Assembly: GCA_001730095.1 (NCBI GenBank)
Contig: MDLF01000032.1
Span: forward strand, 1 to 64,000
Reading direction: 5' to 3'
Length of the DNA stretch: 64,000 nucleotides
Source of the DNA: Rhodobacteraceae bacterium (ex Bugula neritina AB1)
GTDB lineage: Bacteria; Pseudomonadota; Alphaproteobacteria; Rhodobacterales; Rhodobacteraceae
This document shows, in pieces, positions 67 through 64,000 of the stretch (its first letter is position 1; each line of letters begins with the position of its first letter). Made by a program: the position numbers and the translations under genes. Under the pieces are notes generated by a model. It had not been told where the DNA came from and ran no database searches. It saw only the letters and a program-made list of their open reading frames with translations.

Positions 67-239
67 CTAATTCAGCGGCCTGTTAGATGCAGCGAACGAC
101 CGCTCTCCGCCCTTCGTGCGCAAAGCTAGGACTTCAGTGAGCCGATTGAGCTCGCTCTGAAGGTGACACGTTTTGCGCAACCAGAGGCAATATCTCTGAC
201 CAAAAAGACAGATCTATCTGATGCTTTACAAGAAGTGTT

Positions 240-44904: not shown

Positions 44905-45045
44905 TGGCCTCTTTCCTTATGCAATAATGCCGACTATATAGGGCAGAAGTTCCCCGACAACGGAAACCTGCCCCGCCAGCCGGGGACGCCCTTTCAGGCG
45001 GCGGGAGAGATGTATCCGGGGGCAAGTGTTTTAAGGAGATGACAC

Positions 45046-45813
45046 ATGGCAAAACCGTTGATGGCCAAGGCAACCGCCGTGTGGCTGGTGGACAATACCA
45101 CAATCAGCTTCAAGCAGATCGCCGATTTCGTGGGCATGCACGAGCTGGAGATCCAGGGCATTGCCGACGGTGAAGTCGCGGTTGGCGTCAAAGGGTTCGA
45201 CCCGATGGCCAACAACCAGCTGACCCAGGACGAGATCGACAAGGCGCAGGCAAACCCGCTGCACAAGCTGAAGCTCAAGTTCAACCCGGCCGCTGCCGGC
45301 GAGGAAAAGCGCCGCGGCCCGCGCTATACCCCGCTGTCCAAGCGCCAGGACCGTCCCAACTCGATCCTGTGGCTGGTCAAATTCCACCCGGAACTGTCCG
45401 ACGCCCAGATTGCCAAGCTGGTGGGCACCACCAAGCCGACCATCCAGTCGATCCGCGAGCGCACCCACTGGAACATTGCCAACATGCAGCCGATCGACCC
45501 GGTGGCGCTGGGCCTGTGCAGACAGTCCGAGCTGGATTCCGTTGTGCAGAAGGCGGCAGCCAAGAAAGCAGCTGAAGGCGGCGTGATGAGCGATGATGAG
45601 CGCCGCAAGCTGGTTTCCACCGAGCAGTCGCTGGAGATGGACGCGGAACCGAAGATCCCGTCGGCCATTGAAGGTCTCGAGACCTTCACGCTGGGCGGCG
45701 GTCTCAGTGACCATGAAGAGAAGAAGGAAGAGGACGTTCTTGACGCCGACAGCTTCTTCAACCTGCCTGCGGGCGGCGATGACGAAGACGACGAAGAGGA
45801 CAGCCGCTTCTGA
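45046..45813 (+). CDS. trcR: DUF1013 cell-cycle transcriptional regulator TrcR
   Basis: This 255-residue DUF1013 protein has two helix-turn-helix-like segments, TTISFKQIADFVGMHELEI near residue 18 and LSDAQIAKLVGTTKPTIQSI near residue 115. KRRGPRYTPLSKRQDRPNSI links them, and the C-terminus is very acidic. In Caulobacter the family member TrcR is linked to cell-cycle transcription. The length and motif order fit. A strong terminator follows. Confidence 0.9.
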   Translation: MAKPLMAKATAVWLVDNTTISFKQIADFVGMHELEIQGIADGEVAVGVKGFDPMANNQLTQDEIDKAQANPLHKLKLKFNPAAAGEEKRRGPRYTPLSKRQDRPNSILWLVKFHPELSDAQIAKLVGTTKPTIQSIRERTHWNIANMQPIDPVALGLCRQSELDSVVQKAAAKKAAEGGVMSDDERRKLVSTEQSLEMDAEPKIPSAIEGLETFTLGGGLSDHEEKKEEDVLDADSFFNLPAGGDDEDDEEDSRF

Positions 45814-45865
45814 TCCGGATACCTCTGTCGTCGTTTCGCCGACTTGCCCGGTAAACGAAAATCCA

Positions 45866-45907
45866 AAAAGGCCGCAGATCCGATGCTCCGGATTTGCGGC
45901 TTTTTTC
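45866..45907 (+). terminator. Rho-independent terminator of trcR
   Basis: GCCGCAGATCCG pairs with CGGATTTGCGGC (12 bp including a G-U pair), followed by six T residues. It lies about 55 bp after the stop codon. Confidence 0.9.
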
Positions 45908-45949
45908 ATTAGAATGAAGGCTCAGTCATAGGAACTGTTGGCTGCGGCG

Positions 45950-46604
45950 TCAGATCTCTTTGCGCGCCTGCATCGCGGCGGAAATGGTGCCATCGTCGAG
46001 ATAGTCCAGCTCGCCGCCGATCGGCACCCCCTGTGCCAGAGAGGTCAGTTTCGCCTGCCCCTGCAGCTGGTCGGCGATGTAATGCGCCGTGGTCTGGCCA
46101 TCGATGGTGGCATTCAGCGCCAGGATCACTTCGCTGATCTCTTCGGTGGCGACCCGGTCCACCAGCCGCGGAATGCGCAGATCCTCCGGTGATCTCTTCG
46201 GTGGCGACCCGGTCCACCAGCCGCGGAATGCGCAGATCCTCCGGTCCGACTGCATCCAGCGCCGAGAGTGTGCCGCCGAGCACGTGATAACGGCCTTTGA
46301 ACACGCCAGCGCGCTCCATTGCCCAGAGATCGGCTACATCTTCGACCACGCACAGCTCGCCGTTGGCACGCCTCTCGTCCGTGCAAAGAGGGCAGATTTC
46401 GCTGGTGCCGACGTTGCCGCAGTTGAGGCATTCGCGCGCTGTCGCCGCGACCTCGCTCATCACGTCGGCCAGCGGCGTCAGCAGCAGCGACCGCTTGCGG
46501 ATCAGATGCAACACGGCGCGCCGGGCCGAGCGCGGCCCCAGTCCCGGCAACTTGGCCATCAGGGCAATCAGGTCTTCGATGTCGCTGGTGGAGTTCTTGA
46601 TCAT
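45950..46604 (-). pseudogene. recR: recombination mediator RecR, frame broken by a 55-bp tandem duplication
   Basis: The N-terminal part is intact RecR: start at 46604, [20 protein letters not shown] helix-hairpin-helix, the zinc-finger Cys set in [16 protein letters not shown], and Toprim beginning [17 protein letters not shown]. After residue 137 the frame shifts because 46136-46190 is repeated exactly at 46191-46245. The rest of RecR ([20 protein letters not shown] and a C-terminal end at 45950) is in another frame. Removing one copy restores 199 residues, the normal RecR length. As read, the product would be a frameshifted protein ending at 45909. It could be a real mutation or an assembly error. 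Confidence 0.93.
46136..46245. repeat. exact 55-bp tandem duplication inside recR
   Basis: Units 46136-46190 and 46191-46245 are identical. The unit length is not a multiple of three, so it shifts the reading frame. Each unit begins GATCTCTTCGGTGGC and ends ATCCTCCGGT. Confidence 0.97.
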
Positions 46605-46978
46605 TCCGCGGCCCTTTGCTTGCCAGCCATATAGGCCGATCGGGGCCGGGGAGCGCAAGGGTGGGCCGACAAAATGTTCAGGGTTTGTCTTGGCGCTATT
46701 CGGGATCGTCCCAGGGGCTGCGCTGTGTCCGGCTGATACAGGCTGCGCCGGATCAGATCGCCCGCCCATTTGTCTGACTTGCGCATGGCAGAGCGGATAC
46801 CGCAGCTGAAGGGGCTGTGGAATGCAGCGGCGGGGACGTGCAATTTCATTGCGGCCAAGGCCGCCTGCTGGGCGGCGCGCCCTGACAGACCGACTGGAGA
46901 CAACGTGCGGCCGGCAGCGATTGGCGGGCAAAGAAAAGGCGGCACCAAGGCCGCCCTTTCCGGGTCTGCAAACACCGT
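46605..46978. other. gap between recR and ybaB
   Basis: About 370 bp separate recR from ybaB, which are usually closer. A minus-strand frame (46601-46975) is open but has no recognised domain or ribosome site. The gap includes an Arg-rich frame that I do not accept as a gene. Confidence 0.4.
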
Positions 46979-47323
46979 TTAGAACGGCAGTTTGATGTCC
47001 TTGGGCAGGCCCATGCTCTCAGTCAGCTTGGCCATCTCATCCTGTGCTTTCTCGGCCGCCTTGGCCTGCGCGTCCTTGATGGCGGCCAGGATCAGGTCCT
47101 CGACCACTTCCTTGTCGTCGCCATTGAAGATCGAGGGATCGATATCCAGGCCTTTCAAGTCGCCCTTGGCAGAGGCGGTGGCTTTGACCAGACCCGCGCC
47201 GGCCTCGCCGGTTACCATGACGTTGTGCAGCTCTTCCTGCATCTGCGCCATCTTGGTCTGCAGTTCCTGTGCCGATTTCATCATCTTGGCCATGTCGCCA
47301 AGACCGCCGAGGCCTTTGAGCAT
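46979..47323 (-). CDS. ybaB: YbaB/EbfC family nucleoid-associated protein
   Basis: This 114-residue DNA-binding protein begins [20 protein letters not shown], then [20 protein letters not shown] and the conserved [20 protein letters not shown]. It forms tweezer-like dimers that bind DNA. Its place between dnaX and recR is the usual gene order in bacteria. Confidence 0.95.
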
Positions 47324-47333
47324 CTGTATTCTC

Positions 47334-47732
47334 CTAAGTGCGGAGGCGCAGCGCGCCGTAAATCATCCCCGCACATATCGCAATTGCAAGCGCGATGAAC
47401 AAGTGGGGGGAGGCCGTGCAGTCCTGGATTATGCCCATGGCCTTCTTATCATCGAAGAAAACTTCATGGTTATCCACGGCTATGACGCATGCAAGAGCGG
47501 CCCAAAGAAGGCCGGCGATTGCGAACAGGCCGCGCTTTCTAGAGTAGAGCGCGAATCCGGCAAGGGCGAAGAGCGCCAGTGCAACAGGTTTGGACGAGAG
47601 CCGCAAAAACACATCCCACGCGCTTTCACGTGCTTCTCCTGTATCAAAGCAGGTGGTGGCAAAGGCAGCTGCCGGCAGGGTGAGCAACAGGGCGGTCAGG
47701 CCGGCGGTTACCCGTCCTCGAACGGATCCCAT
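47334..47732 (-). CDS. small membrane protein between dnaX and ybaB
   Basis: This 132-residue protein has a signal-like N-terminus (LTALLLTLPAAAFATTC) and three more hydrophobic segments (PVALALFALAGFALY, LFAIAGLLWAALACVIAV, HLFIALAIAICAGMIYGAL). The first 25 bp of the gene overlap the 3' end of dnaX and its stop is 10 bp before ybaB, so it is embedded in the operon. It is not recognised. It interrupts the standard dnaX-ybaB adjacency. Confidence 0.7.
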   Translation of the reverse strand: MGSVRGRVTAGLTALLLTLPAAAFATTCFDTGEARESAWDVFLRLSSKPVALALFALAGFALYSRKRGLFAIAGLLWAALACVIAVDNHEVFFDDKKAMGIIQDCTASPHLFIALAIAICAGMIYGALRLRT

Positions 47733-49522
47733 TCGTCCTCCACCTCTGGCAGCGCCTCAGCTGCGACTTCGGCAGCCAGTTCCTCGGGCGTGCGGATGCG
47801 GGTGATCTTGGCCTTGGGAAAGCTTTCCAGCACCGCCTGCACCAGCGGATGCGCGGTGGCTTCTTGCCGCAGGGCGTTCTCAGCCGCATCGCGGATCTCG
47901 GCAATGGTGGATGCCTCGCCATCCGGCGCGATGGAGACCACCCATCGGGCGCCGGTCCAGTTCTGCAGTGCGGAACCAAGCCGGGCGGCCAGATCGCGCG
48001 GCGCCTGGGCCGAGGGCGTGAACTCGATCCGTCCCGGCTGGTAGGCGACCAGCCGCACACCGGTTTCCACCTCCACCAGCAGTTTCACGTCGCGGTTGGT
48101 GCGGATCAGTTCAACCACATGTTCGAAACTTGGGTAACGGGCGAGGGCAGAACTGGCCTGCGGTGCCAACGCCGCCACCGTGCCGCCGCCGCCATGGGCA
48201 ACCGGGGCGCCGCCCGCAGGGCCGCCGCCGCCATCTCCGCCGCCGGGTGCCGCGCTGCCAAGCGTCTGGGCGCCCATGCCCTGCATCTGCGCACCACCGC
48301 CGGGACCGCCCGGGGCGGCGGGCGGCGGGGGCGGCGTGTCCTGCAGCTTGCGGATCAATTCCTCGGGGCTGGGCAGATCGGCCACATGGGTCAGGCGGAT
48401 CACTGCCATCTCTGCCGCCATCATCGCGTTCGGGGCCGCGGCCACTTCCTCCAGCGCCTTCAGCAGCATCTGCCACATGCGGGTCAGGACACGCATTGCC
48501 AGCGCATCGGCCATCGCCTTGCCACGAGCGCGCTCATCCGGGCTGACGGTGGGGTCCTCAGCCGCGTCCGGCGTGATCTTCACGACTGAGACCCAATGGG
48601 TGATCTCTGCCAGATCGCGCAGCACCGCCAGCGGGTCGGCGCCCTCGGCGTATTGGCCGCTGAGTTCCGTCAAAGCTGCGGCCGCATCGCCGCGCAGGAT
48701 CATGTCCATCAGGTCCAGCACCCGGCCACGGTCGGCAAGCCCCAGCATGGCGCGGACCTGTTCGGCAGAGGTCTCGCCGGCGCCATGGGAAATCGCCTGA
48801 TCCAGCAGCGAGGTTGCATCGCGCGCGGAGCCTTCGGCGGCGCGGGTGATCAGCGCCAGCGCATCCTCGGCAATTTCAGCACCTTCGGCACCGGCGATCT
48901 TGCGCAGCAGCGCAATCATCACTTCCGGCTCGATCCGGCGCAGGTCGAACCGCTGACACCGCGACAGAACGGTCACCGGTACCTTGCGGATTTCGGTGGT
49001 GGCAAAGATGAATTTCACATGCGCCGGCGGTTCCTCCAGCGTCTTCAACAGGGCGTTGAACGCAGAGGTCGACAGCATGTGAACTTCGTCGATGATGTAG
49101 ATCTTGTAGCGGGCCGACGCGGCGCGGTACTGCACGCTGTCAATGATCTCGCGGATGTCGTTGACACCGGTGCGGCTAGCCGCGTCCATTTCCATCACAT
49201 CGACATGGCGGCCTTCCATGATGGCGGTGCAATGTTCGCATGTGCCGCAGGGATCGGTGGTGGGGCCGCCCTGGCCGTCCTCACCGACGCAGTTCATCCC
49301 CTTGGCGATGATCCGCGCGGTGGTGGTCTTACCGGTGCCGCGGATGCCGGTCATGATAAAGGCCTGGGCGATCCGGTCAGCCGCAAAAGCGTTCTTCAGG
49401 GTGCGCACCATGGCGTCCTGACCCACCAGATCGGCAAAGGTTTCTGGCCGGTATTTGCGGGCCAGAACCTGATATTGGGATTGGCCGGTGTCGCCGGTGG
49501 TGCCGCTGGGGATGTCGTTCAT
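47708..49522 (-). CDS. dnaX: DNA polymerase III subunits gamma and tau
   Basis: This 604-residue clamp-loader subunit has Walker A GIRGTGKTTTARIIAKGMNC near residue 58, zinc-binding Cys in CGTCEHCTAIMEG, Walker B IYIIDEVHMLSTSAFNALLK and a sensor TEIRKVPVTVLSRCQRFDLR. Domain III ends near 380, followed by a Gly/Pro-rich linker (about 395-450) and a tau-type C-terminus. No obvious slippery A-run is seen at the tau/gamma boundary. The gene starts the dnaX-ybaB-recR operon. Confidence 0.96.
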   Translation of the reverse strand: MNDIPSGTTGDTGQSQYQVLARKYRPETFADLVGQDAMVRTLKNAFAADRIAQAFIMTGIRGTGKTTTARIIAKGMNCVGEDGQGGPTTDPCGTCEHCTAIMEGRHVDVMEMDAASRTGVNDIREIIDSVQYRAASARYKIYIIDEVHMLSTSAFNALLKTLEEPPAHVKFIFATTEIRKVPVTVLSRCQRFDLRRIEPEVMIALLRKIAGAEGAEIAEDALALITRAAEGSARDATSLLDQAISHGAGETSAEQVRAMLGLADRGRVLDLMDMILRGDAAAALTELSGQYAEGADPLAVLRDLAEITHWVSVVKITPDAAEDPTVSPDERARGKAMADALAMRVLTRMWQMLLKALEEVAAAPNAMMAAEMAVIRLTHVADLPSPEELIRKLQDTPPPPPAAPGGPGGGAQMQGMGAQTLGSAAPGGGDGGGGPAGGAPVAHGGGGTVAALAPQASSALARYPSFEHVVELIRTNRDVKLLVEVETGVRLVAYQPGRIEFTPSAQAPRDLAARLGSALQNWTGARWVVSIAPDGEASTIAEIRDAAENALRQEATAHPLVQAVLESFPKAKITRIRTPEELAAEVAAEALPEVEDEWDPFEDG

Positions 49523-49723
49523 GATGTCTCGTGCCGGATTCGGTGTGCGGGCGCGCGCCCTGCGTTCCGCGCAGGGTATTGAAGCGCGGCCCGTTCGTCC
49601 ACTGCAGAAGGGCAGGCGGCGGGCAGGCAGGAAAAGGAATTGTTTTTTGACTTTTTGCCGTTAGAATCAATTGGCAAGACCCTGGGCGGGCGTGGGAATT
49701 GGAACGCAACGCAAGGAGGCGGC

Positions 49724-50278
49724 ATGCGATCTGACAAATCCTCTGGGACTGCGGTGCAGGAAATGCCTGTACCAGTGAATATCTCGATCCATGAAGTGCC
49801 CGTCGCGGGCGGGCTTTTGGCCCTGTGCCCCTTGCCGGGCAAGGGCGGCGATTATGCCGGCGACATGGGCCGGATCAACGCCTGGAAGCCCGGACTGGTG
49901 ATCTCCATGACCACGGCTGAGGAACACGCGGCGGCAGGCAGCCATCGGCTGGGCTGCGATATCCAAAGCATGGCCAGCCGATGGATTCACCTGCCAGTGC
50001 CGGATTTCGACGTGCCATCCCCGCAGGTGGCGGCCATATGGCCCAAGGCCAGCGCTTCGGCGCGGATGGCGCTGGAGGGCGGCGGCCGGGTGCTGGTGCA
50101 TTGCCAGGGCGGCTGTGGCCGCTCCGGCATGGCAGTGCTGCGGCTGATGATCGAAATCGGCGAAGATCCCGCACAGGCGCTGGAACGGCTGCGCAGCGTG
50201 CGCCCCTGCGCGGTGGAAACACAGGCGCAGCTGGAATGGGCCAATGCCGGCCGCCCGACAGGGCAGCGCCCGCAATAG
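49724..50278 (+). CDS. dual-specificity/tyrosine phosphatase-like protein
   Basis: This 184-residue protein has the Cys-phosphatase signature VLVHCQGGCGRSGMAVLRLM (HCxxGxxRS) near residue 125 and a general-acid Asp probably in PVPDFDVPSP. An N-terminal LPGKGGDYAGDMGRINAWKP is also seen. It is likely a cytosolic protein phosphatase or a lipid phosphatase. AAGGAGG precedes ATG 49724; an in-frame extension to 49640 is not needed. It is divergent from dnaX. Confidence 0.87.
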   Translation: MRSDKSSGTAVQEMPVPVNISIHEVPVAGGLLALCPLPGKGGDYAGDMGRINAWKPGLVISMTTAEEHAAAGSHRLGCDIQSMASRWIHLPVPDFDVPSPQVAAIWPKASASARMALEGGGRVLVHCQGGCGRSGMAVLRLMIEIGEDPAQALERLRSVRPCAVETQAQLEWANAGRPTGQRPQ

Positions 50279-50324
50279 GTCGGCAGCCCGCTGCGGCCTG
50301 CCGGTCCCTGCCCAATCCGCTGGT

Positions 50325-50729
50325 TTAAAGCGCCAGCATCTGCTCTGCCTGCCGCGCCTCTGCCGTTTTCGGCAGCGCCTCCATCAGCGCGCAAGGGCGG
50401 GCGTCCAGTTTTGACGCGGCAAAGCCAGTGCCGTCACGGCTGAGGATCGCGTCGGCAAAGCGGTCCAGGCCTTCACGCGGGGCCTCCTCTCCGACACCGC
50501 AGAACAGCCGGATCCGGTCATGGCTGGCCACGAATTGGGCCGGGCAGCTGCGCGGGCAGCCGTCCAGTGCAGAAGTGCCCGTGATTTCGAAATCCTCATG
50601 GGTCATCGGCTTGGCCTTGGTCATTGCCTCAGCCAGTTTGGCGATCATCCGCTCTGCCGCGGGGCAGGGGCGCCCCAGGTGTTTGCAATCCGTTGCCGCA
50701 TAGAAATGCGTCTTGTCCGTCCACATCAT
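50325..50729 (-). CDS. DUF1636 (ferredoxin-like metal-binding) protein under B12 control
   Basis: This 134-residue protein has Cys residues in ATDCKHLGRPCPAAE, SALDGCPRSCPAQFVASHD and LFCGVGEEAPRE, the pattern of DUF1636, a thioredoxin-like ferredoxin-related fold. DUF1636 genes often sit with cobalamin genes. GGAGG precedes the ATG. A cobalamin riboswitch lies about 120 bp upstream on the same strand with no other gene between, so this is the regulated gene. A role in cobalt or corrinoid handling is an inference. Confidence 0.88.
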   Translation of the reverse strand: MMWTDKTHFYAATDCKHLGRPCPAAERMIAKLAEAMTKAKPMTHEDFEITGTSALDGCPRSCPAQFVASHDRIRLFCGVGEEAPREGLDRFADAILSRDGTGFAASKLDARPCALMEALPKTAEARQAEQMLAL

Positions 50730-50847
50730 ATTTGCGCCCTCCGCGCGTGGTACGGGGGTCTTGAAAGCAGGAGTTCGGATGAAAAACGGTTTGCCGCCGG
50801 TGCCATCAGACCCTGCCCGGACACCCCGCCCGGGTTCGAGTTACAGT

Positions 50848-51062
50848 TCCGATGGCAGGTCTCCTGACTTGCGGGTCGTCGCTTTCCCGATCCTTCCCGG
50901 CCTCTTGCGGGCCAGTGGCTCTATCGGGGTCGCTCGCCGCTTACAGTTGCGGGGGCAGTCTCGGACTTGGCCTGCTGACATGCGGGCCGCACCGTGTTCC
51001 CTTTTGATCCCGGACACAAGATTCTGTGGCACGGGAACCATCGGCACCAGCGGTAGCGGTTC
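50848..51062 (-). ncRNA. cobalamin (B12) riboswitch
   Basis: On the minus strand the conserved pieces occur in the right order: GGTGCCGATGGTTCCCGTGC near the 5' end, AAAAGGGAACACGGTGCGGC, CCCCGCAACTGTAAGCGGCG, the B12-box region AGAGCCACTGGCC, GGGAAGG, and the 3' signature AGTCAGGAGACCTGCCATC. It should repress the downstream DUF1636 gene when adenosylcobalamin is plentiful. Edges are approximate. Confidence 0.93.
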
Positions 51063-51292
51063 GCCTGCCGAGTCGTCAATCGTTTTTCTGCACCTGCACT
51101 AGCTGCCAGTGGCGGCGCGGGTTCGGCGATCTGCCGGAAATCGGCGCATCCCTGCTGTGGCGCCCCATCGCGCCGACCCGGCAACAGACGGGAGTGTGAA
51201 AGTTCGGCCAACTGGGCACCCTTGCCCGCACCTGGCCTGCGCTCAGGCCGCAGTAGACGCCGGAGGGCTGATAGGAGGGGGAGGCGGGGTTG

Positions 51293-51760
51293 TCAGGCGG
51301 TTCGGTTCAAACGCTCTTCCGTGATGCGGGCGTATTCTGCCAGCCGCAGCTTGAAACGGCGGTTGAGATTGCTGCGCGCCAGTTTCAGCGATTGCACCAT
51401 CAAACGCCCGGTCAGCGTGGTCGGAGACAGTGCCAGCCGAACAGACATACGGGTCCGGTGTGGCGACAAGGCCAGCAGCTCAACCTCTGTCCGGCCGTCA
51501 ATGCCACTGCCGCTGCCATTCAGCACAAGGCCTGACGGCGGCGTGAATGATGCCATCGTCAGTTTGATGTCGCGCGACTTGCCGCGAAAATTGAAGGTCA
51601 GATCCCAAACCAGGCCGTTCTCCGGCTGGGCGAGGTCGCCGGTGCGCTGCAGCTCTATCCCGCGCCGCAGGGCAGAGCGCTCCAGCAGCTCGAAGTCCGA
51701 GATGGCCGCAAAGACATGATCGATCGGAGCCTCGATGTCTTCTTTGCTGTGAAATTCCAT
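51293..51760 (-). CDS. SRPBCC/START-like lipid or ligand-binding protein
   Basis: This 155-residue protein begins MEFHSKEDIEAPIDHVFAAI, the first strand and helix of a SRPBCC fold, and ends in a basic helix (NLNRRFKLRLAEYARITEER). The middle has WDLTFNFRGKSRDIKLT. The start is placed at 51760; an extension to 51835 would overlap nudC. The ligand is unknown. It lies directly downstream of nudC on the same strand. Confidence 0.82.
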   Translation of the reverse strand: MEFHSKEDIEAPIDHVFAAISDFELLERSALRRGIELQRTGDLAQPENGLVWDLTFNFRGKSRDIKLTMASFTPPSGLVLNGSGSGIDGRTEVELLALSPHRTRMSVRLALSPTTLTGRLMVQSLKLARSNLNRRFKLRLAEYARITEERLNRTA

Positions 51761-51815
51761 TTGCGTTGCCTCATATGCCGCTTGGGAGCCGCGCTGTTTC
51801 CGCCAAATATGCGCT

Positions 51816-52799
51816 TTAGTCCAGCGTGTCCGCAAGCCAGTTCTTGATCAAAAACTGTGCAATTGCCCCTTTGCGCGCGGGTTTCAGAACCGGATGTTCG
51901 CCGGCGAACACTGTCATCATCTCCTGACGGCCGATCCACAGCGCATCCTCGATCTCCTCGGGGTCGATGGTGATCTCACGGCTCAGGGCCTCACCTGCAC
52001 AGCCAAACATCAGCGACATCGGAAAGGCCCAAGGTTGACTCGACAGGTACCGCACTGGACCAACCTGCACTCCGGTTTCCTCCAGCACTTCGCGGCGCAC
52101 CGCGGCCTCCAGCGTCTCTCCCGGTTCCACGAAGCCGGCCAACAAAGAGTACATCCCTTCCGGCCAGCCGGGCGAGCGGCCCATCAGAACGCTGTCACCA
52201 TGGGTGATCAGCATGATCACGACCGGGTCTGTCCGCGGAAAATGCGGCGCTTTGCAGGCCGGGCAGACCCTTTGCCAGCCCGCTTGCGCCATGTCGCTGG
52301 CGGCGCCGCAGCAGGCGCAATACCGGTGGCTGCGGTGCCAGGCCAGCAATGCCTTTGCGGTGGCGGCCAGCTCTGCCTCCAGCGGCGACAGGCGGGTCAT
52401 CACCCGGCGCAGTTCAGCAAAGACATGGCCGGACGGCAGGTCCGGGTGCTGTTGTTCGCTGGCGTCGGCAAAGCTGTTGAGAGCCTCACTGTCGACATCA
52501 TCAGGCTGCCAGCCACTGATATCGCAGGCAAAGCAGGGGGTGCCGTCCGAGGTCAGTCCAAGAAACAGCGCATCCGGTTTGCAGGCTGCGGCCAGCGGAT
52601 GGGCCGGTTTGCTCCAGGCAAGGCCGCAGGGCAGATCCGTCTCCGTTTCCTGCCGCGTCAGCGGTTTGCCCCGCCACATGAGCAGCACCTGGGCGCCGGG
52701 CGTGTTCCAGGCTGTTTCCAAAGCTGCGCTGTCGCTTCGCAGATGCGCGGCGCGTTCCAATATGCCGCCGCCAAAGGTCACCTGTTCCGCGCGTTTCAT
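51816..52799 (-). CDS. nudC: NAD(+)/NADH diphosphatase NudC
   Basis: This 327-residue enzyme hydrolyses NADH (and NAD caps on RNA) to NMNH and AMP. A zinc ribbon is formed by CACCGAASD and RVCPACKAPHFPRTDPVV. The Nudix box is GFVEPGETLEAAVRREVLEE followed by TGV, and the NADH-specific motif is SSQPWAFPMSLMFG. The N-terminal domain (1-150) is typical. ATG 52799 is chosen over a long upstream frame. It is followed by the SRPBCC gene. Confidence 0.95.
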   Translation of the reverse strand: MKRAEQVTFGGGILERAAHLRSDSAALETAWNTPGAQVLLMWRGKPLTRQETETDLPCGLAWSKPAHPLAAACKPDALFLGLTSDGTPCFACDISGWQPDDVDSEALNSFADASEQQHPDLPSGHVFAELRRVMTRLSPLEAELAATAKALLAWHRSHRYCACCGAASDMAQAGWQRVCPACKAPHFPRTDPVVIMLITHGDSVLMGRSPGWPEGMYSLLAGFVEPGETLEAAVRREVLEETGVQVGPVRYLSSQPWAFPMSLMFGCAGEALSREITIDPEEIEDALWIGRQEMMTVFAGEHPVLKPARKGAIAQFLIKNWLADTLD

Positions 52800-53134
52800 G
52801 GCAGCTCTCCTATGGCTGGCGGCCTTTTGGGCCGTGCTCAACGTGGGACTGCAGCCATGCATGACAGTATGACGCAGGGGCAGCCAGCATTCGCCTGCGA
52901 TCAATGCTTGCCTGTCGCAGTGCCGCCACACCTGCCCTGATTAACGCGGGGTCATTTTTCAGCAGAACAGGGAAAACCACGCTGCCGCAGCGGGCGATCT
53001 ACGAAAAAGTTAATATGCTGTGAAAAGGATGCTTTGCAAAAGCGGAAAACGCTGATTCAAATAGCGCGGGACAAGAATAACGCCGAAGGGCGCGAAAGGA
53101 GCGGCGGGCAGGCAGTGTCAGCAGAATTTTGGAT
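52800..53134. other. divergent intergenic region, no gene
   Basis: This gap of about 335 bp between nudC and the metallophosphoesterase should hold two promoters. It contains an AT-rich block at about 53005-53030. No open frame here looks like a real gene. Confidence 0.5.
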
Positions 53135-54988
53135 ATGACCACCGGGGCCGGGACCTCAGAAACCGGGACTTCCGGGACGCTGCATGTGTTGGCCACCACG
53201 GACCTGCACTGCAATCTGCTGAGCCATGATTATTATGCTGACCGGCCGGATCCAGCCATCGGCCTGTCACGGGCGGCCACTTTGATCGCCCAGGCGCGCA
53301 CTGAGGCAGCGCGACTGGGCGCGGCCTGTATCCTGGTTGATAATGGCGACGGGTTGCTGGGATCGCCCCTGGGGGAAATTCTGCCGCAAATGGCTGGACC
53401 GCACCCGCTGATGCGCGCCTTTCAGGTCCTGCAATATGACGCAGCGGGCCTCGGCAACCATGATTTCGATTCCGGGCTGGCTGCTCTGACGAACATGCTG
53501 AAGGACGCGCCTTGCCCGATGCTGTGTGCGAATCTGACGGCCGCGCAGCCGGGCCTGGAACTGCCGTTTGCCGCTTCAGCAGTTCTGGAGCGCGCCGTGC
53601 CCGCCTGCCCAGGCTTGCCGCCTCTGCGGATCGGCGTTTTCTCAGTCCTGCCGCCGCAGACGCTCTCCTGGTGCCGTCAGGTGCTGGCAGGGCAATTGCA
53701 GGCGCAGGGCATTGCAGAGGCCGCCGCCGAGCAGGCGCGGCAGCTGAAGGCGCAGGGCTGCGATCTGGTGCTGGGCCTGGCGCATAGCGGACTGGCGGCA
53801 GAAGGTGGCGACAGCAGTGAAAACGCCTTGGAGCTGCTGGCGGCCCTGCCAGAGATCGACGCTCTGGTTGGCGGCCATACCCATCTGACACTGCCACATC
53901 CGGACCACCCCTTTGCCAAGCCGGTGGTGATGCCAGGCGCGCATGGCTCGCATCTGGGGATGATCCGGCTGGAGCTGGAACATGTTTCCGGCAGCTGGCG
54001 GATGCGCCGTGGCACGCCCAGCCTGCAGCCGGTTGCCCAACCGGGGGCAACAGGTGCCGTGCAGCCGCTGGCGCAGGAGGCGCCTGCATTGGTGCAGGCC
54101 CTGGCAGATGATCACGGCCTCACCTTACAGCGCATGCAGGAGCCGGCAGGACACAGCCCGGTGGCGATGCATTCCTATTTTACCTTCTTTGCGCCGGACC
54201 GCGGTCTTGCCCTGACGGCCAGCGCCCAGGCGGCTGCGGCGCGGGTGCTGCTGCGCGGCACTGACGGTGAAAACCTGCCGTTGCTGTCTGCGGTGGCGCC
54301 AGGCAAATTCGGCGGCCGCTCCGGGCCGCAATATTACACTGATATTGCCGCCGGTGCGCTGTCTGCCCGCAATATTGCGGATCTGCAGGTCTTTCCGAAT
54401 GAACTGAAGGCAATGGCTGTCACGGGCGCGCAGCTGCAGGATTGGCTGGAAATGTCGGCCGGGCTGTTTAACCAGGTGATGCCAGGCAGTGCCGGACAGC
54501 AGCTGGCAGACCCGCATCGGGCAGGCCACAACTTCGATGTGATCTTTGGCCTCAGCTACCGGATCGATGTATCCCAGCCACCGCGGTTCTCCGCCTCGGG
54601 GGCGCTGTTGAATCCGGATGCCCGGCGGGTTTCGGATCTTCGCTGGCAAGGCCAGCCGATTGACCCCGGCCAGCGGTTCGCAGTTGCACTCAACAGTTAC
54701 CGGGCCAGCGGTGGTGGCCGGTTCCGGATGCTGGAAACCGCAGAGGAGCTGCCGTTGCCGCCGCTCCGCATCCGGCAGGCGATCAGCGACTATATTGCCG
54801 GGCGTTTGCCGCCGGATCCGCTGGCCGAGGCCGCCTATCCCTGGCAGCTGGCGCCGGTTCCGGGCGCACGCGCAGTTGCCGTGACAGGGGCGGGCGCTGC
54901 GCAGCACCTGGCGGAATTGCCGGACGGGCTGGCCACGCCACGCGGTTTCAGCAGCGATGGTTTCTGGGAGCTGGAACTGCAGCTATGA
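53135..54988 (+). CDS. 2',3'-cyclic nucleotide phosphodiesterase/5'-nucleotidase family protein
   Basis: This protein of about 617 residues has two domains. The metallophosphoesterase half (about 15-300) has LHVLATTDLHCNLL, ILVDNGDGLLGS, GLGNHDFDSGL and ALVGGHTHLTLP, which supply the two-metal ligands. The C-terminal 5'-nucleotidase half (about 330-570) has NLPLLSAVAPGKFGGRSGPQ and FAVALNSYRASGGGRFRML. It resembles CpdB. No signal peptide is visible, unlike periplasmic CpdB. Substrates are probably cyclic or 3'-nucleotides. The ribosome site is weak. Confidence 0.88.
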   Translation: MTTGAGTSETGTSGTLHVLATTDLHCNLLSHDYYADRPDPAIGLSRAATLIAQARTEAARLGAACILVDNGDGLLGSPLGEILPQMAGPHPLMRAFQVLQYDAAGLGNHDFDSGLAALTNMLKDAPCPMLCANLTAAQPGLELPFAASAVLERAVPACPGLPPLRIGVFSVLPPQTLSWCRQVLAGQLQAQGIAEAAAEQARQLKAQGCDLVLGLAHSGLAAEGGDSSENALELLAALPEIDALVGGHTHLTLPHPDHPFAKPVVMPGAHGSHLGMIRLELEHVSGSWRMRRGTPSLQPVAQPGATGAVQPLAQEAPALVQALADDHGLTLQRMQEPAGHSPVAMHSYFTFFAPDRGLALTASAQAAAARVLLRGTDGENLPLLSAVAPGKFGGRSGPQYYTDIAAGALSARNIADLQVFPNELKAMAVTGAQLQDWLEMSAGLFNQVMPGSAGQQLADPHRAGHNFDVIFGLSYRIDVSQPPRFSASGALLNPDARRVSDLRWQGQPIDPGQRFAVALNSYRASGGGRFRMLETAEELPLPPLRIRQAISDYIAGRLPPDPLAEAAYPWQLAPVPGARAVAVTGAGAAQHLAELPDGLATPRGFSSDGFWELELQL

Positions 54989-55053
54989 CTGGCTGAACTC
55001 AGCGCAGGCGGCGCAGCCCTTGCCAATCCCGGCAGCGGCCCTTATATCGGGAT

Positions 55054-55152
55054 TCGAGAGGTTGGCGCGGGCAGGCGCCTCGCCAACCTGGTCAGATCCG
55101 GAAGGAAGCAGCCACAACGAGCCCCGCTTGGGTCGATGTCCAGCCTCTCACT
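55054..55152 (+). ncRNA. ffs: signal recognition particle 4.5S RNA
   Basis: A hairpin closed by GAGAGG (55056-55061) and CCTCTC (55144-55149) contains the universally conserved domain IV sequence GGTCAGATCCGGAAGGAAGC followed by AGCCACAACGA. The length of about 97 nt is normal for a bacterial small SRP RNA. It partners Ffh in cotranslational targeting. Ends are approximate. Confidence 0.95.
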
Positions 55153-55302
55153 TACCCCCCCTCCACTATTACCTCCCCTGAACCAATTGATGTGAAATTG
55201 ACAAGGGGCTCCCGCCCGCTTTGGAGCAATCAAAGATTGCCCCGCGCCGTTGGGCCGGGCGCCACGCTGGCGCGTGGCGGGAATCGCCGCTTCTTCTGGC
55301 TG

Positions 55303-55350
55303 GAAATATCCTGGGGTGAATTGGCCTGGAGGCCAAGAGGGGCAACGCCC
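55303..55350 (+). repeat. possible extragenic repeat (AAATATCCTGGGGTGAATTGG)
   Basis: The segment GGAAATATCCTGGGGTGAAT followed by TGGCCTGGAGGCCAAGAGGG has internal pairing (GGCC/GGCC) and resembles a short element that I have seen at gene ends in Roseobacter genomes. A related fragment (GGTCAAGAGGGGCGCC) occurs at about 44228-44243. Confidence 0.35.
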
Positions 55351-55369
55351 CTGCCTGCCGTGCGCTAGT

Positions 55370-56203
55370 TCAGAACCGGCCGTTGTCCGCCGGGTAAACG
55401 CCAAGGATTTCCACATTGGTGGTGAAATAACTCAGCTCGTCCATCGCCAGCTGCACATTGGCGTCATCGGGATGGCCTTCGATGTCGGCATAAAACTGGG
55501 TCGCGGTGAACGAGCCGTCCACCATATAGCTTTCCAGTTTGGTCATGTTGATGCCGTTGGTGGCAAAACCGCCCATCGCCTTGTAAAGCGCCGCCGGGAT
55601 GTTGCGCACCTGAAACACGAAGCTGGTGATCATGTTATGGGCGCCGCGGCGGCTAAAGTCCGGCTTCTGCGCCATGATCAGAAAGCGGGTGGTGTTGTCG
55701 CTGCTGTCCTCGATATGGCGAGCAAGCACATTCAGACCGTAGATCTCGCCTGCCAGTTCGCTGGCCAGCGCGGCAGAATGGATGTCGCCGGCTTCGGCCA
55801 CATCACGGGCGGCGCGCGCGTTGTCGGGGCTAACCCGGCCGCGGATGCCATTGTCCCGCAGGAAGGTTCCGCATTGCGGCAAAAGCACCAGATGCGAATG
55901 CGCCTCCTGGATGTCTTCCAGTTTTGCTCCCGGCACCGCCAGCAGGTTGATATGCACCCGCACAAAGGCTTCGTCCACGATATGCAGCCCGCTGTGCGGC
56001 AACAGCCGGTGGCTGTCGGCCACGCGGCCATAGGTGGAGTTTTCCACCGGCAGCATCGCCTGCTCCGCCGCGCCGCTGCGCACCGCTTCCAGAATGTCCT
56101 CAAACGTGCGGCAGGCCAGCACCTCCATGCCGGGGCGGGCGATGCGGCAGGCCTCGTGGCTGTAGGAGCCAAGCTCCCCCTGAATGGCGATTTTGCGGCT
56201 CAT
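55370..56203 (-). CDS. pheA: prephenate dehydratase
   Basis: This 277-residue monofunctional enzyme converts prephenate to phenylpyruvate for phenylalanine synthesis. The catalytic domain (1-180) has AIQGELGSYSHEACR, LPVENSTYGRVADSHRLL and the catalytic DNTTRFLIMAQ. The ACT domain (about 190-275) has the GALYKA-like IPAALYKAMGGFATNGIN and KLESYMVDG; the classical ESRP is replaced by ESYM. The ATG at 56203 is chosen. It is divergent from cycM. Confidence 0.95.
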   Translation of the reverse strand: MSRKIAIQGELGSYSHEACRIARPGMEVLACRTFEDILEAVRSGAAEQAMLPVENSTYGRVADSHRLLPHSGLHIVDEAFVRVHINLLAVPGAKLEDIQEAHSHLVLLPQCGTFLRDNGIRGRVSPDNARAARDVAEAGDIHSAALASELAGEIYGLNVLARHIEDSSDNTTRFLIMAQKPDFSRRGAHNMITSFVFQVRNIPAALYKAMGGFATNGINMTKLESYMVDGSFTATQFYADIEGHPDDANVQLAMDELSYFTTNVEILGVYPADNGRF

Positions 56204-56322
56204 GGGTGTGTTCCCCGTGCAAAACTTCAAGATTTGGGCGTTTCGTCGCGCTGTCTATACCTTGCCACTTTGAAGGGGAAGCCTTAGACAACCGGTCAGA
56301 CAGCTAAATGGACCCGCGATTC

Positions 56323-56829
56323 ATGTTTGACACAATGACCCTTACCAAAGCGACCGCAGGCTTTTGCGGCGCGTTCCTGGTTCTCCTGCTGGGCAAATGG
56401 GCCGCAGAGGGCCTGTATCACGTGGACAGCCACGGTGAGGCCGCCTATGTGATCGAAGTCGCCTCGGCCGAAGCCGCCAGCGATGAGCCGGAAGTCAGCT
56501 TCGAAGAGCTGATGGCCTCTGCCGATGTTGCCAAAGGCGCAAAAGTTTTCAAGAAATGCTCTGCCTGCCACAAGCTGGAAGACGGCGCGAACTCAACTGG
56601 CCCCTACCTCTATGGCGTGGTTGGCCGCAATATCGCTGCCGCACCGGGCTTTGGCTATTCCGGCGCTCTGACCGGCATGGCAGACAAGGCCTGGACTGCC
56701 GAAGAGCTGGACGCCTTCCTGACCAAGCCGTCGGCCTATGCGTCTGGCACCACCATGTCGTTCTCGGGTCTGAAGAAACAGAAAGACCGCGTGAACCTGA
56801 TCGCCTATCTGGACAGCCTGGACAACTAA
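56323..56829 (+). CDS. cycM: membrane-anchored cytochrome c (CycM/cytochrome cy type)
   Basis: This 168-residue protein has an uncleaved N-terminal anchor (MTLTKATAGFCGAFLVLLLG), an acidic linker, and a cytochrome c domain with heme motif CSACHKL near residue 85 and the axial Met in TTMSFSGLKKQKDR. NIAAAPGFGYSGALTGM is typical of class I cytochromes. It carries electrons between bc1 and terminal oxidases in the membrane. The start at 56323 matches the family; an ATG at 56308 lies upstream in frame. Confidence 0.93.
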   Translation: MFDTMTLTKATAGFCGAFLVLLLGKWAAEGLYHVDSHGEAAYVIEVASAEAASDEPEVSFEELMASADVAKGAKVFKKCSACHKLEDGANSTGPYLYGVVGRNIAAAPGFGYSGALTGMADKAWTAEELDAFLTKPSAYASGTTMSFSGLKKQKDRVNLIAYLDSLDN

Positions 56830-56860
56830 ACCTGTCTACTGTCCCAGCTATCCAACCGAA

Positions 56861-56892
56861 AAAGCCGCTGCAGACCCGCAGCGGCTTTTTTT
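56861..56892 (+). terminator. Rho-independent terminator of cycM
   Basis: AAAGCCGCTGC and GCAGCGGCTTT form an 11-bp stem with an AGACCC loop and a T-run after it. It lies 32 bp after the stop codon. Confidence 0.95.
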
Positions 56893-56916
56893 GATGGCAG
56901 CATTGCCCGGCCGTCA

Positions 56917-57153
56917 TCAGGCCGGGTTGTTTTCCCGGTAATAGGCCAGCGCATCGCGTTCCTGACCGTCGGGCAGGATGCAGACGCCGATGGGGCCGGC
57001 CTTGCCGCTGCGCCGCACATACTGGCCGCTGCTCTGGACGCAGAACGCCTCTTCGGGGCTGGAATAGACCACTTCCTCCTCCTGCTGGGCGCAGGCGCTG
57101 AGGGCTGCAACCCCGGCCAGGGCAAGGGGGGCTAGATACTTCACTGTCGGCAT
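56917..57153 (-). CDS. DUF333-like lipoprotein
   Basis: This 78-residue precursor has a lipoprotein signal (YLAPLALAGVAALSAC). The mature part resembles DUF333: AFCVQSSGQYVRRSGKAGPI and GVCILPDGQERDALAYY, with two Cys that may form a disulfide. It is small and cell-envelope located. ATG 57153 matches the signal; a longer frame to 57219 does not. Confidence 0.83.
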   Translation of the reverse strand: MPTVKYLAPLALAGVAALSACAQQEEEVVYSSPEEAFCVQSSGQYVRRSGKAGPIGVCILPDGQERDALAYYRENNPA

Positions 57154-57386
57154 TTCTGTCTCCCTGAGGTTCTGACGTTTTTGTGATTCGAGGCTGGCAT
57201 GCAGTCCAATACCGGGCAAGCAGCCGCTGAAAAGGCTGGCAGGATCGGCCGTTGCACGCCAAAAGGGAGCGTGGCGCGAACAGGAAACCGCCTAATCGCA
57301 ACTTGAATGTTACCGCCCCCCGCCATTAGCTTGTGGGCAGATAAGATCCTGGGCGCTAGGCCGCAGGCAAAAGGAGGTCATGGCAG

Positions 57387-59312
57387 ATGAATCCCGCTCG
57401 AGCTGCGGCGCGCGTGCGCACAATGGACAGGGTGAACCCGCTGCAGGTAGCTGCGGTACTGGCCCAGGCTCTGACACTGGGGCTGATCCTGGTTCTTGCC
57501 GCGGCGACGCTGGTCCGGGCAGAGGACACCATCATCAAGGCCCATGGCTTTGCCGAGTTCGGGGATCTGAAATACCCCCAAGGCTTTGCGCATTTCGACT
57601 ATGTGAACCCTGAGGCGCCCAAGGGCGGTGAACTGGCGATTTCGGCGGTTGGCACTTTCGACAGCATGAACCCCTACACCCGCAAGGGCCGGGCAGGGAT
57701 GTTGTCTTCGCAGCACTTCGAAAGCCTGATGGTCGGCTCGTACGATGAACCCGGCTCCTACTACGGGCTGCTGGCCGAAAGCCTTGAGTATCCGGAAAGC
57801 CAGGACTGGGTGATCTTCAATCTGCGGCCCGAGGCGCGGTTTTCGGACGGGTCTGCGGTTACGGCTGATGATGTGGTCTTCTCTCACAACATTCTGCTGG
57901 AGCAGGGGCTGAAATCCTATGCCGAAGCCGTGCGCAAGCGCATCCCAAAGGCCGAAGCACTGGGGCCGCACCGGGTGAAATTCTACTTCTCGCCGGACTT
58001 CCCGCGCCGGGCGATGATTTCCCAGGTGGCCGGCACGTCGGTATTCTCCAAGGCTTGGTTCGAGGCCGACCCCGAAAACCGCCGCATTGACGAACCGCGG
58101 CTGGAACCGGGCATCGGCTCGGGGCCTTACGTGCTGGACAAGGCAGAGGTGAACCAAAGCATCATTTACCGCCGCAACCCGGACTACTGGGGCAAGGACA
58201 TCAACGTGAATATCGGTCGCCACAACTATGACAGCATCCGGGTTGAGTACTTTGGCGATGCGGTGGCCGCGATGGAAGGGTTCAAGGCAGGGGTCTACAC
58301 GCTGCGCCCTGAAAACAGTTCTAAAAGCTGGGCGACTGCCTACAATTTTGATGCGGTGAACGCAGGCGAGGTGGTCAAAGGCGAAATTCCGGACGGAAAC
58401 GTGCCTGCGGCCTCTGGCTTTGTGATGAACCTGCTGCGTCCCAAATTCCAGGACATCCGCGTCCGCGAGGCGCTGCAGCTGGCCTATAATTTCGAGTGGA
58501 CCAACGAAAGCCTGCAATATGGGTTGTTCCGCCACCGGTCCTCTTTCTGGCAGGACACGCCGCTGCAGGCTGAGGGCCTGCCCGAAGGCCGCGAAAAAGA
58601 GGTGCTGGAGGCGCTGGACGGTCAGATCGATCCATCGCTGCTGACCTCGGAGCCGGTGATGGCGCATGCCTCCAAACCGGCCCGCCCCGGCGACCGCAAG
58701 AACCTGCGCCGCGCCATGAAACTGCTGGACGAGGCTGGCTGGACCGTCGGCGATGACGGCGTGCGCCGCAACGCGGACGGCGAGGTGTTCAAACTGGAGT
58801 TTCTGGTCGACAGCCCGACCATCGAACGTATCGTGCAGCCCTATGTCACCAATCTGAACACCATGGGGCTGGAGGCTGTGGTGAACCGGGTCGACTATGC
58901 ACAATTCACCAGCCGCCGCCGCGAGAAGGAGTTCGACATGATCTCCTCCGCCTACCGGATGTCGCTGGAGCCTTCGACCGGCCTCTACCAGCAATTCGGC
59001 TCCGAAGCGCATGAGTATTCGGTCTTCAACCCCGCCGGGCTGGCCGATCCGGCAGTCGATGCGCTGATCGGCAATATCGTCAATGCCACGACACAGGACG
59101 AACTGCGCGCCAATGCCCGCGCCCTAGACCGGGTGCTGCGTGCCAAACGATTTGCGGTGCCGACCTGGTATCTGGACGTGAACTGGGTTGCTTATTGGGA
59201 CATGTACAGCCAGCCGGAAAACCTGCCGCCCTACAGCCCGGGCTTCCTGGACCTGTGGTGGATTGACGATGCCCGCGAAGCGGCGCTGAAGTCTTCCGGC
59301 GCGCTGCGGTAA
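57387..59312 (+). CDS. yejA: ABC transporter substrate-binding protein, YejA type
   Basis: This 641-residue periplasmic binding protein has a signal-like N-terminus with an extended basic start (ARAAARVRTMDRVNPLQVAA) and hydrophobic core (LTLGLILVLAAATLVRA). The SBP_bac_5 fold begins AHGFAEFGDLKYPQGFAHFD. It contains FNLRPEARFSDGSAVTADDV and ends YSPGFLDLWWIDDAREAA. YejA binds oligopeptides and microcin C-like peptides. AAGGAGG lies 9 nt before the start. It is the first gene of yejABEF. Confidence 0.95.
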   Translation: MNPARAAARVRTMDRVNPLQVAAVLAQALTLGLILVLAAATLVRAEDTIIKAHGFAEFGDLKYPQGFAHFDYVNPEAPKGGELAISAVGTFDSMNPYTRKGRAGMLSSQHFESLMVGSYDEPGSYYGLLAESLEYPESQDWVIFNLRPEARFSDGSAVTADDVVFSHNILLEQGLKSYAEAVRKRIPKAEALGPHRVKFYFSPDFPRRAMISQVAGTSVFSKAWFEADPENRRIDEPRLEPGIGSGPYVLDKAEVNQSIIYRRNPDYWGKDINVNIGRHNYDSIRVEYFGDAVAAMEGFKAGVYTLRPENSSKSWATAYNFDAVNAGEVVKGEIPDGNVPAASGFVMNLLRPKFQDIRVREALQLAYNFEWTNESLQYGLFRHRSSFWQDTPLQAEGLPEGREKEVLEALDGQIDPSLLTSEPVMAHASKPARPGDRKNLRRAMKLLDEAGWTVGDDGVRRNADGEVFKLEFLVDSPTIERIVQPYVTNLNTMGLEAVVNRVDYAQFTSRRREKEFDMISSAYRMSLEPSTGLYQQFGSEAHEYSVFNPAGLADPAVDALIGNIVNATTQDELRANARALDRVLRAKRFAVPTWYLDVNWVAYWDMYSQPENLPPYSPGFLDLWWIDDAREAALKSSGALR

Positions 59313-59321
59313 ACCACAGCC

Positions 59322-60407
59322 ATGGCAGCCTATATTTTCCGACGCCTGCTCTTGGTGATCCCGACGCTGTTCGGCATCCTGGTGGTGAATTTTGCCCTGG
59401 TGCAATTTGTCCCCGGCGGCCCTGTAGAACAGATCATCGCCCAGCTCGAAGGCGGCGGCGATGTGTTCGAAGGATTCGCCGGCGGCGGTGGTGACACCGG
59501 CACTGAAACCATCGGTGCCAATGAAAACTACGCCGGCCGCCAGGGGCTGCCACCGGAACTGATCGCGGAACTCGAAGAGCAGTTCGGCCTTGATAAACCA
59601 CCACTGGAGCGGTTCCTGATCATGCTGGGCAATTACGCCACGTTTGATTTCGGCGAGAGTTATTTCCGCAAGATCGCAGTGACCGACCTGGTGTTGGAAA
59701 AAATGCCGGTCTCGATCTCGCTGGGCCTGTGGTCGACCCTGATCGCCTATCTAATCTCGATCCCGCTGGGCATTCGCAAGGCGATGAAAGACGGCTCCTC
59801 CTTCGACACCTGGACCAGCGGCGTGATCATCGCGGCCTATGCCATCCCCGGTTTCCTGTTTGCCATCATGCTGCTGGTGCTGTTTGCCGGCGGCTCCTAC
59901 TGGCAGATCTTCCCGCTGCGCGGGCTGACGTCCGACAATTGGGACAGCCTCAGCCTTATTGGCAAAATCCTGGATTACTTCTGGCACATCGCGCTGCCGG
60001 TCGCAGCCTCGACCATTGCGGCCTTCGCCACCCTGACGCTGCTCACCAAGAATTCCTTTCTGGATGAGATCAAAAAGCAATACGTCATGACCGCCCGTGC
60101 CAAGGGGCTCAGTGAAACGCGGGTGCTTTACGGCCATGTGTTCCGCAATGCGATGCTAATTGTGATTGCCGGTTTCCCGGCGGTTTTCATCGGCGTGTTC
60201 TTTGCCGGCTCTCTGATCATCGAGACGATTTTCTCGCTCGACGGGCTGGGCCGACTGGGGTTTGAAGCTGCGGTGGCGCGTGACTATCCGGTGATGTTCG
60301 GCACAATGTATATCTTCGGGCTGATGGGGCTGGTGGTCGGCATCCTCTCTGACTTGATGTATGTGTTCGTCGATCCCCGCATCGACTTTGAAAAGCGGGA
60401 GGGCTGA
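59322..60407 (+). CDS. yejB: ABC transporter permease YejB
   Basis: This 361-residue inner-membrane permease begins [20 protein letters not shown] and has six hydrophobic segments. The cytoplasmic EAA-type loop is near [19 protein letters not shown], which contacts the ATPase. A long periplasmic Gly-rich insert (about 50-80) is typical of YejB. It starts 9 bp after yejA. Confidence 0.95.
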
Positions 60408-60410
60408 TCC

Positions 60411-61517
60411 ATGGCGTTATCCCCCCTGAACCAGCGCCGCTGGCATAATTTCTGCAAAAACCGCCGTGCCTACTGGTCGCTGTGGATCTTTTCGGTGCTG
60501 TTCGGCCTGTCGCTCTTTGCCGAATTCATCGCCAACGACAAACCGATCCTTGTCAGCTACCGGGGCGAGGTCTATGCACCGGTGTTCAAATTCTACCCGG
60601 AAACCAAATTCGGCGGCGATTTCCAAACAGAGGCGGTTTATTCCGATCCGGAAGTCGAATGCCTGATCCGCTCCGGTGGGGTGGAAGACTGCTTTGACGA
60701 ACCAGCAGCCATCCTGGAGGAGATCACGACCGGCACCTATGCAGCGGAAGGCTTCGCAGAAGGCTGGACCCTATGGCCGCCCATTCCCTACAGTTTCAAC
60801 ACCACGGTGGACCGCCCGGGTGCTGCGCCGCTGCCGCCGGGCGGGCTGAACCTTCTGGGCACCGATGACACCAAGCGCGATGTGCTGGCGCGGGTGATCT
60901 ACGGTTTCCGCCTATCGATCCTGTTCACCCTGATGGTCACAGGCGCCGCCAGCCTGATCGGCATTCTGGCCGGCGCTGTGCAGGGCTACTTCGGCGGTCT
61001 CACCGACCTGATCTTCCAGCGGGTGATCGAGGTCTGGGGATCAATCAACTCGCTTTATGTGATCATCATCATGTTTGCGATCCTGGGGCGCAGTTTCTGG
61101 CTGCTGGTGGGTCTGATGATCCTGTTTGGCTGGACCGCTCTTGTCGGTGTGGTGCGGGCCGAGTTCCTGCGCGCCCGCAACCTGGAATATGTCCGCGCCG
61201 CCAAGGCACTGGGCGTCGGCAACCTGACGATCATGTTCCGCCATATGCTGCCCAATGCGATGGTGGCGACGCTGACCATGCTGCCCTTCATCATCACCGG
61301 CACCATCGGCCTGCTGGCCGGGCTCGATTTCCTCGGCTTCGGCCTGCCGTCCTCGGCGCCGTCCCTGGGCGAGCTGACCCTGCAGGCCAAACAGAACCTC
61401 GAAGCGCCCTGGCTGGCTTTCACCGCCTTCTTCACCTTTGCCATCATGCTGTCGCTCTTGATTTTCATTTTCGAAGGCGTGCGCGATGCCTTCGACCCGC
61501 GGAAGACGTTTTCATGA
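60411..61517 (+). CDS. yejE: ABC transporter permease YejE
   Basis: This 368-residue permease begins LSPLNQRRWHNFCKNRRAYW and has a large periplasmic loop (about 45-140, including GGDFQTEAVYSDPEVECLIR) as in YejE. LLGTDDTKRDVLARVIYGFR and the EAA loop near AKALGVGNLTIMFRHMLPNA follow. It starts 3 bp after yejB. Confidence 0.95.
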   Translation: MALSPLNQRRWHNFCKNRRAYWSLWIFSVLFGLSLFAEFIANDKPILVSYRGEVYAPVFKFYPETKFGGDFQTEAVYSDPEVECLIRSGGVEDCFDEPAAILEEITTGTYAAEGFAEGWTLWPPIPYSFNTTVDRPGAAPLPPGGLNLLGTDDTKRDVLARVIYGFRLSILFTLMVTGAASLIGILAGAVQGYFGGLTDLIFQRVIEVWGSINSLYVIIIMFAILGRSFWLLVGLMILFGWTALVGVVRAEFLRARNLEYVRAAKALGVGNLTIMFRHMLPNAMVATLTMLPFIITGTIGLLAGLDFLGFGLPSSAPSLGELTLQAKQNLEAPWLAFTAFFTFAIMLSLLIFIFEGVRDAFDPRKTFS

Positions 61518-61677
61518 CCGGCTCAGACTTGTTTGAAATGCATCGCCCGGCGGGACGCCGGGCAGTGCCCGTCCGCCCCGCCACGCCAAAGGCGTGCTTT
61601 CAGCACGACGGGCGGGTACTTCGTTTCCGCCCTCGGACGGGCAGTGCCCTCATGGTGGTGTCGCAAGGGGAAACACA
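61518..61677. repeat. structured spacer between yejE and yejF
   Basis: The 160-bp gap holds GCCCGGCG/CGCCGGGC (61545-61563), and GGGCAGTGCCCGTCC (61560-61574) nearly complementary to GGACGGGCAGTGCCC (61635-61649). It can fold into a long hairpin and may be a REP-like insertion within the operon. Confidence 0.55.
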
Positions 61678-63267: not shown

Positions 63268-63360
63268 GCCGCCGCAGGTTAACTCCTCGGCAAGCTTTGC
63301 AATATCTATGCGTGCGCAACCCGCGCAACGCCCAGAAGTTGCGGCAGCGCCGCTGACCAA

Positions 63361-63380
63361 ATGTTTCGCACGCGAAACAT
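63361..63380. promoter_or_regulatory. 20-bp palindrome ATGTTTCGCACGCGAAACAT
   Basis: Nine-base arms ATGTTTCGC and GCGAAACAT flank a central AC. It resembles the ParB parS site (TGTTTCACGTGAAACA) but with a 2-bp longer centre, and it could instead be an operator for an unknown regulator. Confidence 0.45.
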
Positions 63381-63512
63381 TGCGGCAGAAATACTGACCT
63401 ATCAGGCTGTGTTTTTGGCCGACTGTATTTTGAACGGGCTGTGTTTTCAAAGGACAGCGAGGCACTCCCGCGCCCGCAGGTGCCCCGGCTGCGCCGGAAC
63501 CCCTTGGCGGCC

Positions 63513-63553
63513 TTGGGCGAGGCTCAGCGCCAAGGGCGCTGAGCCTCGCCCAA
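63513..63553. repeat. 18-bp perfect inverted repeat hairpin
   Basis: TTGGGCGAGGCTCAGCGC and GCGCTGAGCCTCGCCCAA are perfect inverted copies with a 5-nt loop. It lies between two convergent genes and could act as a terminator or an extragenic repeat; no T-run follows. Confidence 0.8.
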
Positions 63554-63617
63554 CGGGAGCGCTGCGCCTTTGGCGCGGCGGCGACAGGCGGGAGAAATGC
63601 GCCGCTCAACGATTGTG

Positions 63618-64000
63618 TCAGAAGGCGGTGCGGCGGTCGAAGCAGCTCAGGTCGTAGGCGTCAAAGTTGCGGGCGATCATCCGGGGCAGCGGACGGGCTT
63701 CCTTGCAGATATCCAGCCCCTTGGCGGAAATCTGTAACATACCCGGAAAGGCAGCGCTGACTTCCTGGAACATCCGCTCCAGTTGGTCTGCGCTGATGGC
63801 AAACTGAGACAGGATTTCTGCGCGGCAAATGCGGAAATCGCACATCAACGCTTCAATCAGCCGTGCCCGCAGCAGATCTTTACCGCCAAGGGCATGGCCG
63901 TGGGCCGTGGCGAAGTGCCGGTCCCGGATGGTGCGGATATGGGTGGAGCTGGCCAGCGCATGCAGCCGCCGGTCACCGATCTCATTCGGGTCAATCTCCA
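63618..64000 (-). CDS. hemN: oxygen-independent coproporphyrinogen III oxidase, C-terminal part
   Basis: The frame runs to the window end, so only the last 126 or so residues are present. They include EIDPNEIGDRRLHALASS, AHGHALGGKDLLRARLIEAL and MCDFRICRAEI, and end RNFDAYDLSCFDRRTAF, matching the C-terminal domain of HemN (the E. coli protein has a similar late Arg-Asn-x-Cys-x-x-Phe-Asp-x-Tyr segment). HemN makes protoporphyrinogen IX anaerobically by a radical SAM reaction. The radical SAM core lies outside the window. Confidence 0.85.
   Translation of the reverse strand, partial: EIDPNEIGDRRLHALASSTHIRTIRDRHFATAHGHALGGKDLLRARLIEALMCDFRICRAEILSQFAISADQLERMFQEVSAAFPGMLQISAKGLDICKEARPLPRMIARNFDAYDLSCFDRRTAF

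Follow-up and report, generated by a model that had tools for sequence, protein, structure and literature searches.

An exact 55-bp tandem duplication that breaks recR in a Rhodobacteraceae draft genome is very probably an unmerged assembly overlap

The recR gene, on the minus strand of the window (the entire 64,000-nucleotide stretch of DNA analysed here), has its reading frame shifted by one through an exact 55-bp tandem duplication, which we hold with high confidence to be an artefact of assembly and not a feature of the biology. This reading is preferred because the duplicated unit has the same length as the overlap shared by contig ends, because a second 55-bp duplication occurs in the same assembly, and because the repeats that flank two scaffold gaps are bounded by exact 55-base matches. 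We infer that the living strain most likely carries a single unit and an ordinary RecR. The initial annotation of the locus had left three readings side by side, namely loss of RecFOR-type repair, a slippage-reversible switch, and an error of assembly; the 55-base end overlaps and the second 55-bp unit favor the last of these and not the other two.

The duplication itself is unambiguous in the sequence as deposited. Tandem Repeats Finder (TRF) reports an array at positions 46135-46245 of the window with a period of 55, 2.0 copies, 100% matches, 0% indels and a score of 222, while the window's three other arrays match at 61-83%. A self-comparison at period 55 gives a run of 56 consecutive matches starting at 46135, and direct comparison finds the two 55-mers at 46135-46244 to be identical, in agreement with the head-to-tail arrangement originally described (Table 1). 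With matches running to 56, the 46136-46245 of the initial annotation describes this repeat just as well, one base out of phase. An exact tandem copy of 55 bases cannot reasonably be put down to chance. The short motifs GATC and CGGT recur close to both ends of the unit.

Table 1. Features of the recR region and contig ends with a 55-base overlap
Feature	Location	Strand or match	Basis
recR 5' part	46191..46604	-	in frame, 138 codons from ATG 46604; TIGR00615 positions 3-137
recR 3' part	45950..46190	-	other frame; TIGR00615 positions 118-196; ends at usual C-terminus
55-bp unit, first copy	46135..46189		TRF, period comparison, 55-mer identity
55-bp unit, second copy	46190..46244		46245 matches too, giving the run of 56
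ybaB/ebfC, intact neighbour	46979..47323	-	above NCBIfam cut-off
dnaX, intact neighbour	47708..49522	-	above NCBIfam cut-off
55-base end pairs	C7/C3, C18/C9, C86/C9, C86/C18, C93/C6	exact	end comparison
55-base end pairs	C38/C9, C51/C104, C59/C9, C59/C38	exact	end comparison

The consequence for recR is seen in the match to its family model, TIGR00615, which is split between two frames: one piece covers positions 3-137 of the profile at 46592-46188 (124.4 bits), the other positions 118-196 at 46192-45959 (74 bits). This bears out the earlier statement that the downstream Toprim part is out of frame. In the assembly as given, no single recR frame exceeds the family cut-off of 162.55 bits, and both pieces fall below it. 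Read from its ATG (46604), the shifted frame meets no stop before 45909. Searching the assembly with the recR family model found no second copy, only the two pieces of the one gene, and a DNA search with recR likewise hit one place only. A functional RecR made in two pieces, with the 3' part translated from its own ATG frame (45950-46255), was considered and set aside: the 5' frame passes through 45950-46255 to 45909 with no stop, so coupled re-initiation would have nothing to act on.

Both ybaB and dnaX score above their NCBIfam cut-offs, and the initial annotation was right to call them intact; no NCBIfam family matches the putative trcR at 45046-45813. RecF matches profile positions 1-339 of 339 and RecO positions 1-175 of 239, and since both exceed their cut-offs and are free of stops, the partners of RecR in the RecFOR pathway are kept. 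As a separate observation on this region, 1172 plasmid records match part of window positions 45000-64000, 739 of them from Klebsiella, and the best covers 18% of the query.

The length of the unit takes on meaning when the contig ends are compared. The draft assembly comprises 4,671,673 bases in 106 contigs, of which 83 were covered, with 133 clean ends compared; the far ends of contigs longer than 20 kb were left out, and contig C2, whose 2994 bases read wholly as N, perhaps because they are withheld, was dropped. Counting as shared any exact prefix or overlap of at least 15 bases, we found 11 end-sharing pairs among these 133 ends, and in nine of the 11, equivalent to five of seven independent junctions, the shared sequence is exactly 55 bases long. 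The two remaining junctions share 82 bases (C105/C32, the latter being the contig that carries the window) and 438 bases (C102/C92). The unit duplicated in recR thus equals the commonest contig-end overlap of the assembly; the description of recR as biologically disrupted is not supported. At the left contig end, window positions 1-85 include the 82 bases that match C105 exactly and have near-copies in C22 and C52; this stretch may mark one end of a mobile element.

We scanned 41% of the assembly, window included (1,919,520 bases), at periods of 10-2500. Just two exact tandem duplications have units of at least 30 bp, and in each the unit is exactly 55 bp long. All other exact tandem matches in the scanned 1.92 Mb are short-period arrays of 12 to 24 bp. 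One of the two is that in recR. The other, at an unrelated locus, lies at C85:62312-62421 (L164:2312-2421), with a run of 55, where one open frame begins and shortly ahead of a second, oppositely oriented one; its existence leaves the supposed specificity of the lesion to recR unsupported. The frame whose start it covers, on the minus strand, looks histidine-kinase-like (named by eye), and the predicted start of this frame may be wrong. Among the 20 same-genus genomes, the nearest thing to a counterpart of the C85 duplication is a match of 30 bases, seen in two, and none shows its single-unit form. As a control, 400 kb of one same-genus genome (G007) yielded one 24-bp and one 375-bp tandem case and no 55-bp unit; the 375-bp duplication (G007:C1, L132:14268) is exact, with a run of 512. 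The present assembly shows no excess of long tandem duplications (two in 1.92 Mb versus one, of 375 bp, in the 400-kb control), and the argument for an artefact therefore rests on the length of the unit. The oddity is that both long duplications are equal in length, and that this length is that of the contig overlap.

Similar traces of 55 bases occur at gaps. Six gaps were compared for flush copies, with those on L143 and L160 left out, and in two of the six, both of 100 N, a near-copy lies flush across the gap. In the case of the gap at C85:96500, the preceding 634 bp recur flush after the gap at 98.1% (C85:95866-97233; L030:5867-7234), and at C1:9804 the preceding 228 bp do so at 94.3% (L035:9576-10131). 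Exact 55-base matches bound each of these repeats at both ends, the pattern to be expected when the two arms of one graph bubble are set one after the other. Two Toprim_4 matches on C85 came up as a candidate for another duplicated gene and were set aside, being near-copies on either side of the 100-N gap; the two matches, at C85:95866-97233, are probably one. At the gap in C60 (L160:3851-3950), the first 55 bases after the gap reappear 2,461 bp further along. The starts of C33 and C36 are repeated inward, that of C33 after 167 bp over exactly 55 bases and that of C36 after 366 bp over 55 bases. The C36 start (L078:1-826) recurs at both 366 and 732 bp inward, making a repeat of about 366 bp at the contig end that may be a tandem array in collapsed form. 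Counting against the artefact reading, the sample also contains exact local repeats between 40 and 130 bases long that differ from 55: 44 bases in C22, 89 and 85 in C97, 54 and 49 where C57 begins, and a 94-base match in C36.

A failure of assembly best accounts for the state of recR. The genome would have been assembled from short reads through a de Bruijn graph in which adjacent edges share 55 bases. Where two edges met at a single 55-mer in recR, they would have been written consecutively with their overlap left unmerged; the 55-mer would then stand twice, and the frame would shift by one. We infer an assembler that is SPAdes-like, with K=55, and likewise the exact step at which merging would have failed; an odd overlap such as 55 presumably fits a SPAdes-type graph with this K. 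The literature searched contained, among the matches listed, no description of a contig-internal duplication produced by an unmerged overlap.

Related genomes agree on a single unit. Of 61 genomes searched, 20 belong to the same genus, each being a different species, and in 20 of 20 the recR query, which spans 655 bases, matches over 600, shorter by 55 and so with one unit; the comparison with close relatives that had been proposed earlier thus gives a uniform answer. At the 19 loci fetched, from 19 of the 20 genomes, recR is without exception a 199-residue frame. Codon differences from these 19 relatives sum to 709 synonymous and 160 non-synonymous for the N part and 417 synonymous and 95 non-synonymous for the C part, sums that count related genomes many times and are not independent. 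Judged by these substitutions, neither piece shows any sign of decay or relaxed selection. A very recent mutation would look the same as an artefact in this respect.

It is very unlikely, in our estimation, that recR, and with it RecFOR-type gap repair, has been lost to a real and recent 55-bp tandem duplication arising by slippage or template switching. The duplication is indeed present in the sequence, its copies are identical and the family search found no other recR, but none of the 20 same-genus genomes carries it, and recF and recO are kept, above cut-off and without stops. The absence of relaxed selection in either piece also counts against it, although a fresh duplication would likewise show none. 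GATC and CGGT near both unit ends could aid misalignment, and the genus does contain real long tandem duplications, such as that of 375 bp in G007. A real duplication of exactly the overlap length, joined by one of equal length at an unrelated locus, makes a poor rival.

A variant of this idea takes the duplication as real but carried by only part of the culture, recR being a slippage-reversible switch, with cells of one and two units coexisting and confusing the assembler. Reversion is possible for exact tandem repeats of such a length, and a mixed population of one- and two-unit cells might be expected to branch the graph just at recR. The 20 same-genus genomes, each a different species, show no variation in repeat number at recR, and their uniform single unit is at odds with a conserved switch; moreover, a switch in recR would leave the equal unit length at C85:62312 unexplained. 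We consider it extremely unlikely. Literature searches on recR with a tandem duplication gave nothing useful among the matches listed, and those on reversible short tandem duplications found no paper.

Reading the duplication as an assembly artefact removes the ground for the claim that RecFOR repair has been lost. It also suggests a check for draft genomes: where a conserved gene is broken by an exact tandem duplication, the length of the unit can be compared with the overlap at contig ends. In the present assembly at least one other apparent duplication shares the 55-bp length.

Three known situations offer points of comparison. A passage in PMC5481147 describes SPAdes-type overlaps at contig ends, and the present case is similar in that the contig ends mostly share 55 bases and the recR unit is 55, but the recR overlap lies inside a contig whereas those of the passage are at contig ends. 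False duplications that flank scaffold gaps are present in this very assembly, at C85:96500 and C1:9804; those joins contain 100 N and are inexact, whereas the recR join has no N and is exact. Finally, reversible inactivation by a short tandem duplication resembles recR in that the repeat is exact, tandem and frame-shifting, but differs in that recR is invariant across 20 same-genus genomes and the length of its repeat is explained by the assembler.
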